DNA from: a virus
DNA length: 23,378 bases
IMG/VR virus record: IMGVR_UViG_3300034521_000095
Coordinates: 1 to 23,378 of that record
Direction: 5' to 3' (one strand)
The position numbers and the translations under genes were made by a program. This document shows, piece after piece, positions 2,503 through 11,651 of the stretch (position 1 is the stretch's first letter; the number at the start of each line of letters is the position of its first letter). The notes under the pieces were generated by a model. The model did not search any database and had not been told where the DNA came from. It saw only the letters and a list, made by a program, of their open reading frames with translations.

Positions 2503-3240
2503 ATGACTACACCAAACCCACTGGCGCCGGTAAAGGGTGCCACCACCACGCTCTGGATTTATTCCGGATCGGGTAACCCGTTCGCCAACCCGGTATCGGA
2601 TGTTGACTGGACACGCCTGGCGAAGATTAAAGACCTGCAGCCCGGCGAACTGACCGCAGAATCAAACGATGACACCTATCTGGATGATGCGGATGCTGAC
2701 TGGACGTCCACTTCGCAGGGCCAGAAATCGGCGGGGGAGGCCAGTTTTACGCTGGCCTGGAAACCTGCCGAGAGCGGGCAGCAGGATCTGGTTCGCTGGT
2801 TTGATGACGGTACCGTGCTGGTGTACAAAATCAAATACCCGAATGGCGCCATCGATGTTTTCCGTGGCTGGGTAAGCAGCCTGGGTAAAACGGTGACGGC
2901 AAAAGACACCATTACCCGTTCTGTCAAAATCAGCAACAACGGCAAACCAGGCCTTGCTGAAGACACTGCTGCTGCAGTGATCGACGTAACCGGCGTTAGC
3001 CTGGATAAAGCGACCACCACCGTTGCGGTTGCTGCCACCACCACGCTAAATGTCACCGTGGCGCCTGCCAGTGCGAGCGATCAATCTTTCCTAGCCACCA
3101 CCACTGATGCAGGTAAAGCCACGGTGGCTGTCGCCGGCACGGTGCTGACGGTCACCGGCATTGCCGCCGGAACCGCCGACATTATCGTGATGACCAATGA
3201 CGGGTTGTTTGTCGCGACCTGTAAAGTCACCGTTTCCTGA
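2503..3240 (+). CDS. V: Major tail tube protein gpV with C-terminal Ig-like domain
   Basis: A 245-residue protein (246 in lambda) that builds the tail tube. Residues 1 to about 155 form the tube domain (WTRLAKIKDLQPGELTAES and WFDDGTVLVYKIKYPNGAIDVFRGWVSS segments). Residues about 158-245 are a bacterial Ig-like (BIG2) domain with the usual VTGVSLDK opening and an Ala/Thr/Val-rich beta pattern. In lambda this domain decorates the tube surface and is dispensable. GAGGA lies upstream of the ATG. A hairpin resembling the one after E follows the stop. Confidence 0.95.
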   Translation: MTTPNPLAPVKGATTTLWIYSGSGNPFANPVSDVDWTRLAKIKDLQPGELTAESNDDTYLDDADADWTSTSQGQKSAGEASFTLAWKPAESGQQDLVRWFDDGTVLVYKIKYPNGAIDVFRGWVSSLGKTVTAKDTITRSVKISNNGKPGLAEDTAAAVIDVTGVSLDKATTTVAVAATTTLNVTVAPASASDQSFLATTTDAGKATVAVAGTVLTVTGIAAGTADIIVMTNDGLFVATCKVTVS

Positions 3241-7611: not shown

Positions 7612-8322
7612 ATGCGTCAGAAAATTATCGACGACATTATGGCGCATGCTGCTGCTGAATATCCGCGCGAATGCTGCGGCGTAGTGGTGCAAAAAAGCAG
7701 GGTGCAGCGGTACATTCCCTGCCGTAATCTGGCAACCGATCCGACAGAGCATTTCCACCTGTCACCGGAGGATTACGCCGCTGCCGAAGACTGGGGTACG
7801 GTGATTGCCATTGTCCACAGCCACCCTGACGCAACGACACAGCCGAGCGAACTGGATAAAGCGCAATGTGATGCAACGCTCTTACCCTGGCACATCGTGA
7901 GCTGGCCGGATGGGGATCTGCGTACCATCCAGCCGCGCGGGGAACTACCACTGCTGGAACGCCCGTTTGTGCTCGGTCATTTCGATTGCTGGGGGCTGGT
8001 GATGAGCTACTTCAGGCAGACGCATGGTATCGAACTGACGGATTACCGCGTTGATTATCCCTGGTGGGAAGACAGTTACCCCGAAAACTTCTACCACGAT
8101 TGCTGGTATGAATGTGGATTCCGTGAATTCAGTGGCGTACCGCAGCCAGGTGATATGGTTATCATGCAGGTGCAGTCCAACAAGTGGAATCATGCCGGGA
8201 TCCTGCTCGAAGGTAACATGTTACTCCACCATCTATATGGCCATCTGAGTCAACGTGTGCCTTATGGTGGATACTGGCAGGAACGGACAATTAAGGTTCT
8301 ACGGTATAAGGATCTTTTTTAA
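7612..8322 (+). CDS. K: Tail assembly protein gpK, JAMM plus NlpC/P60 two-domain protein
   Basis: A 236-residue protein needed to form the lambda tail tip. The N-terminal domain is a JAB1/MPN-type metallopeptidase: Glu20, then His69-x-His71-x7-Ser79-x2-Asp82 is a complete JAMM zinc motif. The C-terminal domain (about 117-236) is NlpC/P60-like, with Cys126 in HFDCWGLV and His194 in NHAGILL as the likely catalytic pair, so a cell-wall-cutting activity is plausible. AGGAG sits five bases before the ATG. An intrinsic terminator begins at the stop codon, and the next gene rightwards is convergent. Confidence 0.94.
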   Translation: MRQKIIDDIMAHAAAEYPRECCGVVVQKSRVQRYIPCRNLATDPTEHFHLSPEDYAAAEDWGTVIAIVHSHPDATTQPSELDKAQCDATLLPWHIVSWPDGDLRTIQPRGELPLLERPFVLGHFDCWGLVMSYFRQTHGIELTDYRVDYPWWEDSYPENFYHDCWYECGFREFSGVPQPGDMVIMQVQSNKWNHAGILLEGNMLLHHLYGHLSQRVPYGGYWQERTIKVLRYKDLF

Positions 8323-8343
8323 GCCCACATAAGGTGGGCTTTT
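8322..8343 (+). terminator. Intrinsic terminator after gpK
   Basis: AGCCCAC (8322-8328), loop, GTGGGCT (8334-8340) followed by TTT overlaps the last base of the K stop. On the other strand no T-run follows the stem, so it works rightwards. It lies within the late tail unit, so J expression needs antitermination or a separate promoter. Confidence 0.75.
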
Positions 8344-8352
8344 ACTGTGACG

Positions 8353-8787
8353 CTATTTCTTGGGAATCTCAACCATGAATCCGTTCACGTCCCAGCTTGA
8401 TTCCCAAATGTTGTAACCTAGGCTTTTTAGGCGGGAGAATGTAGCCTTAAACACAGCTTCAAAATCATCATCGCTCAAGCCTTCAAGGTCTAAGTCGCTA
8501 AGGCTGATATGGAATGTAGTGTGCCCAATACGGATCTTCTCGTTAATGACGGAAAATGTCCGTTTGAAAATTATCCCTGACAGCTCATCCTTCGCGCGAC
8601 TTACGATAAGTAGGGCTTCTTCAGCTGAAACTAATTCATCTACCGGCATTTCGCTTAAGAAACTAGCATCAAGACGCTGAACAATTTCTGCATTCATGGA
8701 GCGATTATTAGACTTAGCTGCTTCCTCAATTTGTTCTTTCAATTCAATAGGAAGCCTGATTCTAAGCTGTGGATCTTCTCTGCTCAT
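8353..8787 (-). CDS. Mnt/Arc-type ribbon-helix-helix repressor
   Basis: A 144-residue protein. Residues 1-45 (SREDPQLRIRLPIELKEQI, then NNRSMNAEIVQRLD) closely follow P22 Mnt and Arc. The beta strand that reads the operator in Mnt (Arg2, His6, Asn8, Arg10, Met not counted) is here Arg2, Gln6, Arg8, Arg10. The remaining 100 residues are not Mnt-like, and Mnt is only about 82 long, so the C-terminal part is an unrecognised alpha/beta domain. Its promoter carries an operator with the Mnt core in the spacer. The gene diverges from a small Arc-like gene that precedes an antirepressor, as in P22 immI. The name mnt is withheld because the C-terminus differs. Confidence 0.85.
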   Translation of the reverse strand: MSREDPQLRIRLPIELKEQIEEAAKSNNRSMNAEIVQRLDASFLSEMPVDELVSAEEALLIVSRAKDELSGIIFKRTFSVINEKIRIGHTTFHISLSDLDLEGLSDDDFEAVFKATFSRLKSLGYNIWESSWDVNGFMVEIPKK

Positions 8788-8823: not shown

Positions 8824-8852
8824 ATTATGCCCCACGGTGGGGTTGACTTCAA
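8824..8852 (-). promoter_or_regulatory. Leftward promoter of the Mnt-like gene
   Basis: Read on the minus strand: TTGAAG (-35, 8852-8847), 17-base spacer, CATAAT (-10, 8829-8824). The spacer is filled by operator copy 1, so a bound repressor would directly control this promoter. Its -35 overlaps the -35 of the rightward promoter by two bases. Confidence 0.65.
8830..8842. promoter_or_regulatory. Operator copy 1, CCCCACGGTGGGG
   Basis: Perfect 6+1+6 palindrome. Its central nine bases CCACGGTGG are identical to the core of the P22 Mnt operator as I recall it. It sits between -10 and -35 of the leftward promoter. Confidence 0.8.
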
Positions 8853-8871
8853 TGACGCACGGTGTGACACT
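8843..8871 (+). promoter_or_regulatory. Rightward promoter of the Arc-like and antirepressor genes
   Basis: TTGACT (-35, 8843-8848), 17-base spacer ending in an extended -10 TGT, then GACACT (-10, 8866-8871). The degenerate operator copy 2 lies in the spacer and reaches the -10. The predicted start point falls at operator copy 3. Arrangement parallels P22 Pant, whose Arc operator also lies between -35 and -10. Confidence 0.55.
8855..8867. promoter_or_regulatory. Operator copy 2, degenerate
   Basis: ACGCACGGTGTGA keeps the CACGGTG centre of copies 1 and 3 and most outer symmetry. Its centre is 25 bp from copy 1 and 24 bp from copy 3. It lies in the spacer of the rightward promoter. Confidence 0.6.
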
Positions 8872-8878
8872 TTATGTG

Positions 8879-8891
8879 CCCCACGGTGGGG
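8879..8891. promoter_or_regulatory. Operator copy 3, CCCCACGGTGGGG
   Basis: Identical to copy 1; the palindrome extends one more pair to GCCCCACGGTGGGGC (8878-8892). It covers the predicted start point of the rightward transcript, just upstream of AAGGAG. Confidence 0.8.
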
Positions 8892-8905: not shown

Positions 8906-9073
8906 ATGCAAAAAGCGAAAGATATGTACCAGCGCAAAATTCGCATTCCGGAGGATGTTCGTGAGGCGATTGAAAGGAATGGCGGGGAAGAATGTCGTCA
9001 GTTCAATACCGAACTGATTTACCAACTGAGAAAGGCATATGGTTTGACAGGAGAAAAAAGTGCGCAGGCTTAA
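8906..9073 (+). CDS. Arc-like ribbon-helix-helix repressor, 55 residues
   Basis: A small gene easily missed by length cut-offs. ATG 8906 has AAGGAG five bases upstream and the frame ends with TAA at 9071-9073. The product begins MQKAKDMYQRKIRIPEDVRE and continues with IERNGGEECRQFNTELIYQL. This is the full ribbon-helix-helix pattern: a basic beta strand (QRKIRIP), helix A, turn, and helix B with the FNTELIYQL signature that corresponds to Arc SVNSEIYQRV. P22 Arc is 53 residues. It heads the rightward transcript leading to the antirepressor, the position and size of arc in P22. The ATG at 8901 opens a different frame with no family match. Confidence 0.82.
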   Translation: MQKAKDMYQRKIRIPEDVREAIERNGGEECRQFNTELIYQLRKAYGLTGEKSAQA

Positions 9074-9080
9074 ATTCAGT

Positions 9081-9113
9081 GAAGCCCCAACTAATTGCGA
9101 TAGCCGGGGCTTC
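9081..9113. promoter_or_regulatory. Hairpin in the Arc-like/antirepressor gap
   Basis: GAAGCCCC (9081-9088) and GGGGCTTC (9106-9113) are a perfect eight-base inverted repeat around a 17-base loop. It lies between the Arc-like stop and the antirepressor ribosome site AAGGAAAT. No T-run directly follows on either strand. In P22 this gap encodes the antisense RNA sar that limits Ant synthesis, so a similar RNA-level control is possible but not shown. Confidence 0.5.
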
Positions 9114-9146
9114 TTATCGAACAAATCCCGCGAAGGAAATATCGAC

Positions 9147-9728
9147 ATGAATAGTGTAACCAAAACAGAGCTTAAATTCCAAGGTGTATCTTTCCAGACC
9201 ATCTACGATATTGATGGAATTTGGTTGAGCGCAAATCAGATCGGTTTTGCGCTTCAGTATGCAGACGATAAGGCTGTACAGCGCATACATGCTAGGCATT
9301 GTGATGAATTTACAGAAAAAATGACAAGGGTGGTCAAGTTGACCACCCCTGGTGGAAATCAGGAAACTCGGGTTTTTTCTCTACGTGGCGCACACATGGT
9401 CGCTATGTTTGCCAGAACTCCGGTTGCTAAAGAATTCCGACGCTGGGTTTTAGATATTCTGGATCGTGAGGTTTCTATAAACATTCCAGCAACAAAGATG
9501 CTCAGCGATCGTGAAATCCACGCCCACAATGCAAACGCAATGTTCGATTATTTCGAGGTTATGTGTGAAGCATGGTTTAACCAGATAGAACCAGCTTTGA
9601 GGGCAATAGAGTCACCTTTGGCTGGTCGCCTTCATGATCGTTTTAATGATGGGGCGGCCTTCATATACATGATTAAGGAATATGCTGATCAACAACTACA
9701 ACAGGGAGAACGACCGAGGATTTATTGA
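9147..9728 (+). CDS. Bro-N domain phage antirepressor
   Basis: A 193-residue protein. I start it at ATG 9147 (MNSVTKTELKFQGVSFQTI), with AAGGAAA eight to ten bases upstream, because the longer open frame from 9060 would overlap the Arc-like gene and lacks a ribosome site. Residues about 10-110 are a Bro-N domain: DIDGIWLSANQIGFALQYA, a VVKLTTPGGNQETRVFSLRG stretch, and VAKEFRRWVLDIL. This domain binds DNA or partner proteins in phage antirepressors and baculovirus BRO proteins. The C-terminal part (110-193) is unassigned. Not similar by eye to P22 Ant itself, so it is an analogue in the ant position. Likely role: inactivation of a prophage repressor when Mnt/Arc-like control is lost. Confidence 0.8.
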   Translation: MNSVTKTELKFQGVSFQTIYDIDGIWLSANQIGFALQYADDKAVQRIHARHCDEFTEKMTRVVKLTTPGGNQETRVFSLRGAHMVAMFARTPVAKEFRRWVLDILDREVSINIPATKMLSDREIHAHNANAMFDYFEVMCEAWFNQIEPALRAIESPLAGRLHDRFNDGAAFIYMIKEYADQQLQQGERPRIY

Positions 9729-9804: not shown

Positions 9805-10548
9805 ATGACTTTATCAAATTTAGCATCAAAGGGTAGCGTTGTCACCGAGAAAACCATTGACAGTCAGTACCTGCTGGAGATGGTGAATGCCGCGCGAAAG
9901 CAGTGCGGTGAGCCGGTTGTCCGAAATAACAAGTTCATTGAGAAAGTTGTAGATGAGCTTGATGGTGAGACCTACACAAAAAGTGTAGGTCGTAAAAATG
10001 GCCAAGACATTGAAGTAATTATAATGTCTATCAAGCAAGCCCTCCGCGTAGCAGCTCGTGAATCGAAAGCAGTTCGACGTTCTCTGGTTGATAAGTTGGA
10101 AGATATGCAGGCTATTCAGATTTCAGCGCAAAATAGCTCGGGTCTTCCTGAATATCGACGTGCAAAGGCTGAGCAGTTGAAAGCTCTGGCGCTGGAGAAA
10201 AATATCGCCTCGGCTCGCGAGTTGATGTCAATGTTCCCGAGACTTGGTGAATCAGCCAACCAGGTGATCGTTGCAACGCTCGTTAATCCACTGCTTGGGC
10301 ACGAGATCATGCCTTTGCCGTTGATTGATCAGCACTACTCCACAGCTGGCGAAGTTGCTGCTGAGATCGGCTGTTCTGCCAATAAGGTTGGTCGCTTGGC
10401 AAACAAGCACAATCTGAAAACAGAGCAATACGGGAAATTCTTCCTCGACAAGTCGAAACATTCCGATAAACAGGTTGAGGTGTTTCGCTACAACTCTGAA
10501 GGCGTCAAGGCATTACGACATTTGCTCCAAGGAGCTAGCGTGGCCTGA
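9805..10548 (+). CDS. Second antirepressor-like or regulatory phage protein
   Basis: A 247-residue protein with AAGGA eight bases before its ATG. Residues about 18-55 (IDSQYLLEMVNAARKQCGEPVVRNNKFIEKVVDEL) form a domain seen at the N-terminus of many phage antirepressor-type proteins. Residues about 180-205 (YSTAGEVAAEIGCSANKVGRLANKHNL, read as two parts) look like a winged or plain helix-turn-helix, followed by a short beta region and RYNSEGVKALRHLL. It follows the Bro-N gene in the same direction and ends before a rightward terminator. The precise target is unknown; I infer a regulatory role from the domains and the neighbours. Confidence 0.6.
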   Translation: MTLSNLASKGSVVTEKTIDSQYLLEMVNAARKQCGEPVVRNNKFIEKVVDELDGETYTKSVGRKNGQDIEVIIMSIKQALRVAARESKAVRRSLVDKLEDMQAIQISAQNSSGLPEYRRAKAEQLKALALEKNIASARELMSMFPRLGESANQVIVATLVNPLLGHEIMPLPLIDQHYSTAGEVAAEIGCSANKVGRLANKHNLKTEQYGKFFLDKSKHSDKQVEVFRYNSEGVKALRHLLQGASVA

Positions 10549-10662: not shown

Positions 10663-11001
10663 ATGAAAAAGGCTGTCATATGGACATTGCTCTTACTCTC
10701 TGGATGTTCAAGCATGCAGGATTTGAGATCAGAAGCTCCATCTAATTCTTATAAATCTTCCAAGCAAGTTGACATCATAGCAAACTGCATCCTTACTGGC
10801 TGGCAACAACAAAGCCAGAAATACGGAAGTGTGTTCATACAGCCATATGAAAATGGCAAAACGGTTTATACGCAGTCTCAGCTTGAGATGGCTGATATAA
10901 ATAGAGATGGTGAACTGACCACGATAGAGTTTCGCCATCAGGGGGGCTTGTTCTCATATCGACTTAACAGTCGGACAGGTGTGATAGAACAATGCCTTTA
11001 A
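10663..11001 (+). CDS. Phage-encoded lipoprotein with an EF-hand-like loop
   Basis: A 112-residue protein. Lys-Lys, a hydrophobic core (AVIWTLLLL) and LLSGC give a signal peptidase II site with Cys15 as the lipidated residue; the mature protein would be about 98 residues attached to a membrane. The next residues are Ser-Ser-Met, without Asp at +2, so outer-membrane sorting is expected. DINRDGELTTIE (78-89) fits the canonical 12-residue calcium-binding EF-hand loop at positions 1, 3, 5, 6, 8 and 12. Cys42 and Cys111 could form a disulphide. Flanked by terminators on both sides, it looks like a lysogenic-conversion gene. I do not recognise the family; a role such as superinfection exclusion is only a guess. 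Confidence 0.7.
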   Translation: MKKAVIWTLLLLSGCSSMQDLRSEAPSNSYKSSKQVDIIANCILTGWQQQSQKYGSVFIQPYENGKTVYTQSQLEMADINRDGELTTIEFRHQGGLFSYRLNSRTGVIEQCL

Positions 11002-11045: not shown

Positions 11046-11651
11046 ATGAAAGAAGTAATGGCAAGAATTGAACTTGGAGGAGTTTTAGGTAAAGTTTTTG
11101 GTAAATATCACAATAGATTAATAAGTAGAACAGGTGAAGCAGCAATCGCATTGAGTAAAACAATCCCTGGATTTGAAAGCTACATGGTTAGCAGCAAACG
11201 ACGAGGATTGACCTTTGCTATATTCAAAGGAAAGAAGAATGTTGGTATAGACGAAATGGGGTTCCCAATTGATGGAGATATTGTTCGAATTATCCCAGTA
11301 ATCATGGGTAGCAAGCGAGCAGGACTCCTGCAAACAATATTAGGTGCTGTGCTTATTACAACGGCAATTTTTGTTTCAGGAGGCATAGGTGCAGCGTTTA
11401 CAGCTGGTGGATTAACTGGTTTTGCTGCAGCAACTGGTGCCTCGTTAGTTCTTGGCGGAATTGTTCAAATGCTATCCCCACAGCCAGCAGGACTTGCCAG
11501 CAAACAGGATGCCGAAAATCGGGCATCGTATGCATTCGGTGGTGTAACTAACACTGCAGCTCAGGGTAATCCAGTTCCGCTTCTATACGGACGCAGGCGT
11601 ATTGGTGGGGCGATCATCTCTGCTGGTATATACGTCGAAGACCAGCAATAA
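11046..11651 (+). CDS. I: Tail assembly protein gpI
   Basis: A 201-residue protein (223 in lambda) required for tail-tip formation together with K and J and not found in the mature virion. The central Gly/Ala-rich hydrophobic region (about residues 92-146, GLLQTILGAVLI to GASLVLGGIVQML) and the C-terminal AQGNPVPLLYGRRRIGGAIIS match the lambda I family. The first 90 residues are diverged and their coding sequence is clearly AT-richer than that of K or J, like the inserted block before it. An ATG at 11061 is an alternative start. Intrinsic terminators lie on both sides of the gene. Confidence 0.88.
   Translation: MKEVMARIELGGVLGKVFGKYHNRLISRTGEAAIALSKTIPGFESYMVSSKRRGLTFAIFKGKKNVGIDEMGFPIDGDIVRIIPVIMGSKRAGLLQTILGAVLITTAIFVSGGIGAAFTAGGLTGFAAATGASLVLGGIVQMLSPQPAGLASKQDAENRASYAFGGVTNTAAQGNPVPLLYGRRRIGGAIISAGIYVEDQQ

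Follow-up and report, generated by a model that had tools for sequence, protein, structure and literature searches.

An immI-type cassette in a lambda-type tail operon carries three candidate operators of one class between divergent promoters

Mnt and Arc belong to the 'second immunity' switch of Salmonella phage P22; they are textbook RHH repressors and are known mainly from one natural operator each. The region described here is the control region of a switch of this sort. In the P22 record Omnt is annotated as CTCAATAGGTCCACGGTGGACCT and Oarc as ATGATAGAAGCACTCTACTAT, placed at +43 and +15, respectively, from the first base of the Pant -35 box. The promoters Pant and Pmnt are superimposed there (2794-2822 on the plus strand and 2799-2827 on the minus strand of L006).

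The window analysed here is the whole of a virus record of 23,378 bases. It holds an immI-type 'ant moron', a kind of cassette that is already known, inserted in a lambda-type tail operon. The genes of the cassette and their setting are as follows.

7612-8322, upstream of the cassette: lambda-K-like tail gene (JAB plus NlpC/P60)
8321..8341: hairpin AAGCCCAC/GTGGGCTT between tail gene K and the mnt-like gene (fold z -2.6 on the plus strand, -3.1 on the minus strand), a possible terminator for both strands
8353..8787, minus strand: mnt-like RHH repressor, 144 aa (Pfam Arc, PF03869, 5.9e-15, 55.3 bits; phmmer to 1mnt 2.1e-6; PHROG 1388)
8906..9073, plus strand: arc-like RHH protein, 55 aa, with Q9/K11/R13 (Pfam Arc 4.7e-4; PHROG 228, Arc-like repressor)
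9147..9728, plus strand: ant, Bro-N antirepressor (Pfam Bro-N 1.2e-9, weak P22_AR_C; PHROG anti-repressor Ant)
9805..10548, plus strand: second antirepressor gene (PHROG 1726, anti-repressor, 7.7e-84)
11046-11651, downstream of the cassette: gene with a weak match to lambda tail protein I

The mnt-type and arc-type RHH genes are divergently transcribed, and the antirepressor lies 3' of arc on the same strand. As judged by Pfam, both small proteins have an RHH domain with an N-terminal reading strand, the arc-like protein scoring 20.4 bits, which is exactly the curated cut-off of 20.4. The open frame of ant starts at GTG 9060, and the ATG start given above was picked by comparison with relatives. 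The C-terminal 95 aa of the mnt-like protein are unlike P22 Mnt, which has a tetramerisation segment at its C-terminus, and a moderate-confidence model of this part gave no PDB match with E < 0.001; winged-helix-like matches were weak, none reached that threshold, and they were disregarded. In PDB the arc-like protein matched TAL effectors and designed repeats by sequence, and these matches were set aside as repeat artefacts. Among the Mnt-like proteins of relatives (L043-L067; L001) the N-terminal 44 residues stay alike, with the C-terminal part swapped for unrelated ones. A small lipoprotein-like gene after the antirepressors (10663-11001) weakly matches Cor superinfection exclusion proteins.

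Two promoters and three similar sites lie between the divergent RHH genes.

8824..8852, minus strand: Pmnt, the leftward promoter, from a consensus scan and kept in relatives (-35 TTGAAG 8852-8847, 17-bp spacer, -10 CATAAT 8829-8824)
8830..8842: candidate operator site 1, CCCCACGGTGGGG, between the -35 and -10 boxes of the leftward (mnt) promoter (17-bp spacer); almost all relatives have CCCCACnGTGGGG
8843..8871, plus strand: Pant, the rightward (arc-ant) promoter, read from the sequence (-35 TTGACT 8843-8848, 17-bp spacer, extended -10 TGT-GACACT to 8871)
8855..8867: candidate operator site 2, ACGCACGGTGTGA, in the rightward promoter spacer, overlapping the extended -10; CACGGTGTGA in 64/65 relatives
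8879..8891: candidate operator site 3, CCCCACGGTGGGG, where rightward transcription is expected to start

By exact search the repeat of sites 1 and 3 is absent elsewhere in the window, and the degenerate copy at site 2 lies between them; the centres at 8836, 8861 and 8885 give spacings of 25 and 24 bp. The original prediction had described one repeat present twice exactly with a degenerate copy midway at these distances, and had assigned the copies to the leftward spacer, the rightward spacer and the rightward start point, all of which the coordinates and promoter positions bear out. The divergent promoters that it called overlapping stand back to back, with -35 boxes that share 2 bp. The Pmnt spacer reads TCAACCCCACCGTGGGG and contains site 1. 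Pant is a weak promoter with a poor -10 (GACACT, 3/6), and the consensus promoter scan of the window did not list it; its TTGAC and GACA[AC]T are conserved in relatives, the latter nearly invariant. The best triple of similar palindromes in the window reaches a score of 47, whereas the highest score among 40 dinucleotide shuffles was 37. The 9-bp core CCACGGTGG alone has three exact matches, which is unexceptional in 23 kb, so that the significance of the sites comes from their arrangement and conservation and not from the core by itself. These features support the view that a repressor of the Mnt type has its operators here, between the divergent promoters.

The prediction had given the core as that of the P22 Mnt operator. 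The annotated Omnt does contain it, and the core common to P22 and the window is therefore real. Site 3 lies at +42 from the first base of the Pant -35 box, the counterpart of Omnt at +43, and the window has a candidate Mnt operator at the Pant start point. Site 2 lies at +18, against +15 for Oarc. P22 has in the Pant spacer an Arc operator with a sequence of its own. The window lacks this; site 2 is of the same CACnGTG class as its neighbours, which makes the window a variant layout. The window does not have superimposed promoters of the P22 kind either, and inspection by eye gave no promoter matching the superimposed Pmnt. The regions L318, L320 and L323 resemble P22 in having one Mnt site and a dissimilar Arc-type site. 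One P22-type region (L266) carries a second, extra Mnt-type core upstream of arc.

Relatives were gathered with both proteins and a DNA pattern, and about a hundred were compared. They were found in IMG/VR, E. coli, phage TL-2011b, Raoultella, Kluyvera, Pluralibacter, Pantoea, Proteus and Xenorhabdus; E. coli genomes gave two near matches only, and relatives on plasmids were merely scattered. We defined the family as 65 distinct intergenic regions beside an Mnt with an SREDPQ[LF]R-type N-terminus. All 65 have three sites, 64 by a strict rule and L125 with one altered flank base, and the finding that the prediction had named as fatal to itself, related prophages with these genes but without the repeats, was not encountered among them. 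Across the 65 regions identity to the window is 98% at site 1, 99% at site 2 and 88% at site 3, and falls to 44-55% outside them, in the flanks and in the linker that joins sites 2 and 3. Sites 1 and 2 are 25 bp apart in 63/64 regions, and sites 2 and 3 are 24-27 bp apart. Of the regular spacing first proposed, the fixed distance between sites 1 and 2 thus stands and that between sites 2 and 3 gives way. Strict periodicity is not required given this variation, and helically phased regular spacing was ruled out by it; 24-25 bp also corresponds to a non-integral number of helical turns.

The junction of arc and ant carries two further features, both on the minus strand.

9078..9145, minus strand: sar-like antisense RNA across the arc-ant junction (Rfam RF00262, 33.1 bits, E 2e-4, model positions 1-68/68)
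9153..9182, minus strand: putative sar promoter, TTGGAA-18-TACACT, within the first ant codons; a TA[TC]A[AC]T-like hexamer is present in most relatives

The RF00262 match of 33.1 bits is below the gathering threshold of 43, though full-length; P22 itself scores 97.8. At this junction the minus strand has a strong fold (z -5.3 to -5.4), much superior to that of the plus strand. Of 52 distinct relatives, 44 have the more stable fold on the minus strand and 2 on the plus strand, and G-U pairs number 150 and 32, respectively; these counts describe hairpin-bearing relatives only, 7 of 59 regions without a comparable hairpin having been omitted by hand. An alignment of 28 relatives has 99.6% of its cells paired and a covariation score higher than in any of 500 shuffles or any slid version. 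Judged from the full-length Rfam match and the covariation, a sar-like antisense RNA is encoded across the arc-ant junction of the window.

P22 Mnt begins MARDDPHFNFR (R2/H6/N8/R10) and the mnt-like protein of the window MSREDPQLRIR (R2/Q6/R8/R10). The reading residues thus differ at two positions, as had been noticed, namely 6 and 8 (H/N to Q/R). The outer operator bases were also said to differ, and do: the base beside the core is T in P22 and C in the window. The proposal that this is a natural specificity-change pair gains from a wider comparison, in which, across phages, the base that flanks the CCAC core changes with residue 8; R goes with C, K mostly with A, and the N of P22, accompanied by H6, with T.

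We scanned IMG/VR with a homology-free pattern, CCACNGTGGHNTTGACNNCA, that bars G beside the core, and with a complementary pattern that demands G. The non-G pattern gave 80 loci, 30 of which adjoin a leftward RHH gene; residue 8 is K in nearly all of these, N in two and R in none (0/30). The G pattern gave 78 usable loci, and the 63 that adjoin an RHH gene comprise 60 with Q6/R8, two with Q6/K8 and one that is unreadable. In the two K8 loci of the G pattern A is kept in 5/6 half-sites. A Fisher test of 60/2 against 0/30 gives 3e-22, a value that overstates the independent evidence because the loci are related by descent and no ancestry correction was made. The K8 set covers both inoviruses and tailed phages. 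Exceptions to the rule exist, such as C-type flanks in site 3 of L352 and L394. Overall, the comparison suggests that a single repressor residue varies in step with the operator bases that it reads.

Divergent RHH pairs elsewhere have three sites in the same places with other sequences: AACCAnnnTGGTT-like in L049, GAACCACnGTGGTTC in L312 and, less uniformly, in L064, and ACCTAnTAGGT-like in L065, L071 and L074. All three sites change together in these loci, which indicates a common reader. In the Pf-type inovirus PfAC03 (L493, Inoviridae) the right-hand gene is xis, which is non-RHH, and in L345, L354, L362 and L377 it encodes a small protein without an RHH match. Three sites are kept in all five and in most Pf-type loci read, and the Pf-type contig L363 has two sites only. 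Since three sites are kept beside a right-hand gene that is not RHH, a single protein of the Mnt type may be enough. A further Arc-like gene lies elsewhere in PfAC03, so action in trans is possible. This evidence favours an Mnt-type protein as the predicted reader of all three sites, with the Arc-like protein possibly having a role at site 2.

In our judgement the locus is very probably an immI-type switch, in which the Mnt-like protein represses Pant through operators of one class, the Arc-like protein and sar limit ant, and specificity has diverged jointly from that of P22. Its basis is gene content, the sites, promoter geometry, conservation, the covariation of repressor and operator and that of the RNA structure. 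Points against it are the arc-like Pfam score at its cut-off, the sar score below the Rfam gathering threshold, the poor -10 of Pant and the two-site contig L363. Leftward transcription from Pmnt would supply the prophage with the Mnt-like repressor, which would bind the one-class operators and keep Pant, and with it arc, ant and the second antirepressor, off, site 3 covering the start and site 2 the spacer. Site 1, which fills the Pmnt spacer, would give negative autoregulation of the Mnt-like repressor. Three sites may allow graded repression, as the prediction had suggested. Expressed from Pant upon infection or when Mnt is lost, the Arc-like protein would shut this promoter, probably mainly via site 2, and so limit Ant, and the leftward sar-like RNA across the arc-ant junction would further limit ant translation. 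The specificities of repressor and operator would have diverged from P22 together, R8 occurring with C beside CCAC and the H6/N8 of P22 with T. We infer repressor binding, the direction of regulation and the target of Ant with the help of P22 descriptions (PMC7549136 and PMC2629481), and likewise the division of labour between the repressors.

The roles of the two repressors could be arranged otherwise. Both might read one operator class and compete for the three sites, with their amounts and oligomeric state setting the switch. The similar reading strands (Q-x-R-x-R in the Mnt-like and Q-x-K-x-R in the Arc-like protein) and the CACnGTG common to all three sites make this conceivable, but among Mnt proteins a central lysine rather than arginine goes with different outer bases, so different preferences are expected of the two proteins and we hold competition to be rather doubtful. 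A division of labour as in P22, with the Mnt-like protein on sites 1 and 3 only and the Arc-like protein alone on a merely similar site 2, is in our view unlikely. It would account for a feature that counts against the preferred switch, the near-invariant sequence of site 2's own, which is partly explained by overlap with the Pant -10: in the 65 regions this site is consistently [A/C/G]C[G/T]CACGGTGTGA and never CCCCACnGTGGGG. It also lies near the P22 Oarc position, and separate Arc-type sites do exist in P22 and in L318, L320 and L323, so site 2 is possibly an Arc-specific site. Yet L049 and L312 have a second RHH gene and a site 2 that matches their other sites, most lineages without a second RHH gene retain site 2, and GTGTGA or GTGCGA half-sites occur in site 3 too (L091, L141, L143 and L294). 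That the repeats are chance palindromes or are constrained by the promoters alone is highly improbable: although the core by itself is unexceptional and promoter boxes overlap the sites, this is contradicted by the shuffles, by conservation in relatives of spacer and start-point bases that promoters do not fix, and by other phages, in which the three sites have changed in concert.

Beyond this locus, we lean towards a more general reading: a three-operator Mnt-type RHH switch common to tailed and filamentous Pf phages, with a recognition rule for residue 8 readable from natural covariation (R reads C, K reads A, and N with H6 reads T) and a sar-like RNA kept across a lambdoid prophage family. 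As far as we searched, four things are new: a layout of three sites of one class, the fact that it recurs in different phage groups, the covariation at residue 8 and, in this family, a sar-like RNA. The literature search found no description of the three-site layout, its coverage taking in few of the subscription papers on Mnt and Arc biochemistry, so an earlier description is possible. The relatives form a natural series of repressor-operator pairs in which an RHH recognition rule is directly testable. They also present the immI cassette, sar RNA included, as portable across tail modules, and the layout can be used in prophage annotation for locating antirepressor control regions.

Compared with P22 immI, the window is alike in its divergent RHH genes, the antirepressor after arc, sar across the arc-ant junction and the shared core at the Pant start. 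It has three operators of one class, whereas P22 has one Omnt and a dissimilar Oarc. The flanks of the core, Mnt residues 6 and 8 and the C-terminal part of Mnt also differ, as do the second antirepressor and the position in a lambda-type tail operon between genes K and I. Escherichia phage TL-2011b (L003) and the E. coli prophages L001 and L002 share with the window the three sites and the arc-like and ant genes. In contrast to the window, L001 has a different mnt C-terminal domain, and in TL-2011b the mnt-like frame is frameshifted near the N-terminus (about 3040-3180) and site 1 is degenerate; relatives have intact copies. In TL-2011b as in L001 and L002 the position of the module within the late operon differs from that in the window; the cassette of L001 and L002 lies between tail genes L and K, and that of the window between K and I.

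Pseudomonas Pf inoviruses (PfAC03) resemble the window in that a divergent Mnt-type gene adjoins CCAC-core operators (three of them in PfAC03), and differ in a K8 repressor, A-type flanks and a right-hand xis in place of R8 and arc-ant. An Arc/Mnt-family gene next to xis is described for these phages in a paper from which the word operator is absent (PMC7549136). CCAC-core operators between the Arc/Mnt-type gene and xis in PfAC03, L379, L390, L393 and L404 mark a possible control region not described there. For the ant morons of P22-like phages such as epsilon34, no comparison of Mnt or Arc operators was noticed in the part of PMC2629481 consulted. As that part describes them, these morons sit in P22-type morphogenetic operons, whereas the cassette of the window sits in a lambda-type tail operon; like it, they are portable, independently expressed regulatory cassettes of a late operon (PMC2629481).
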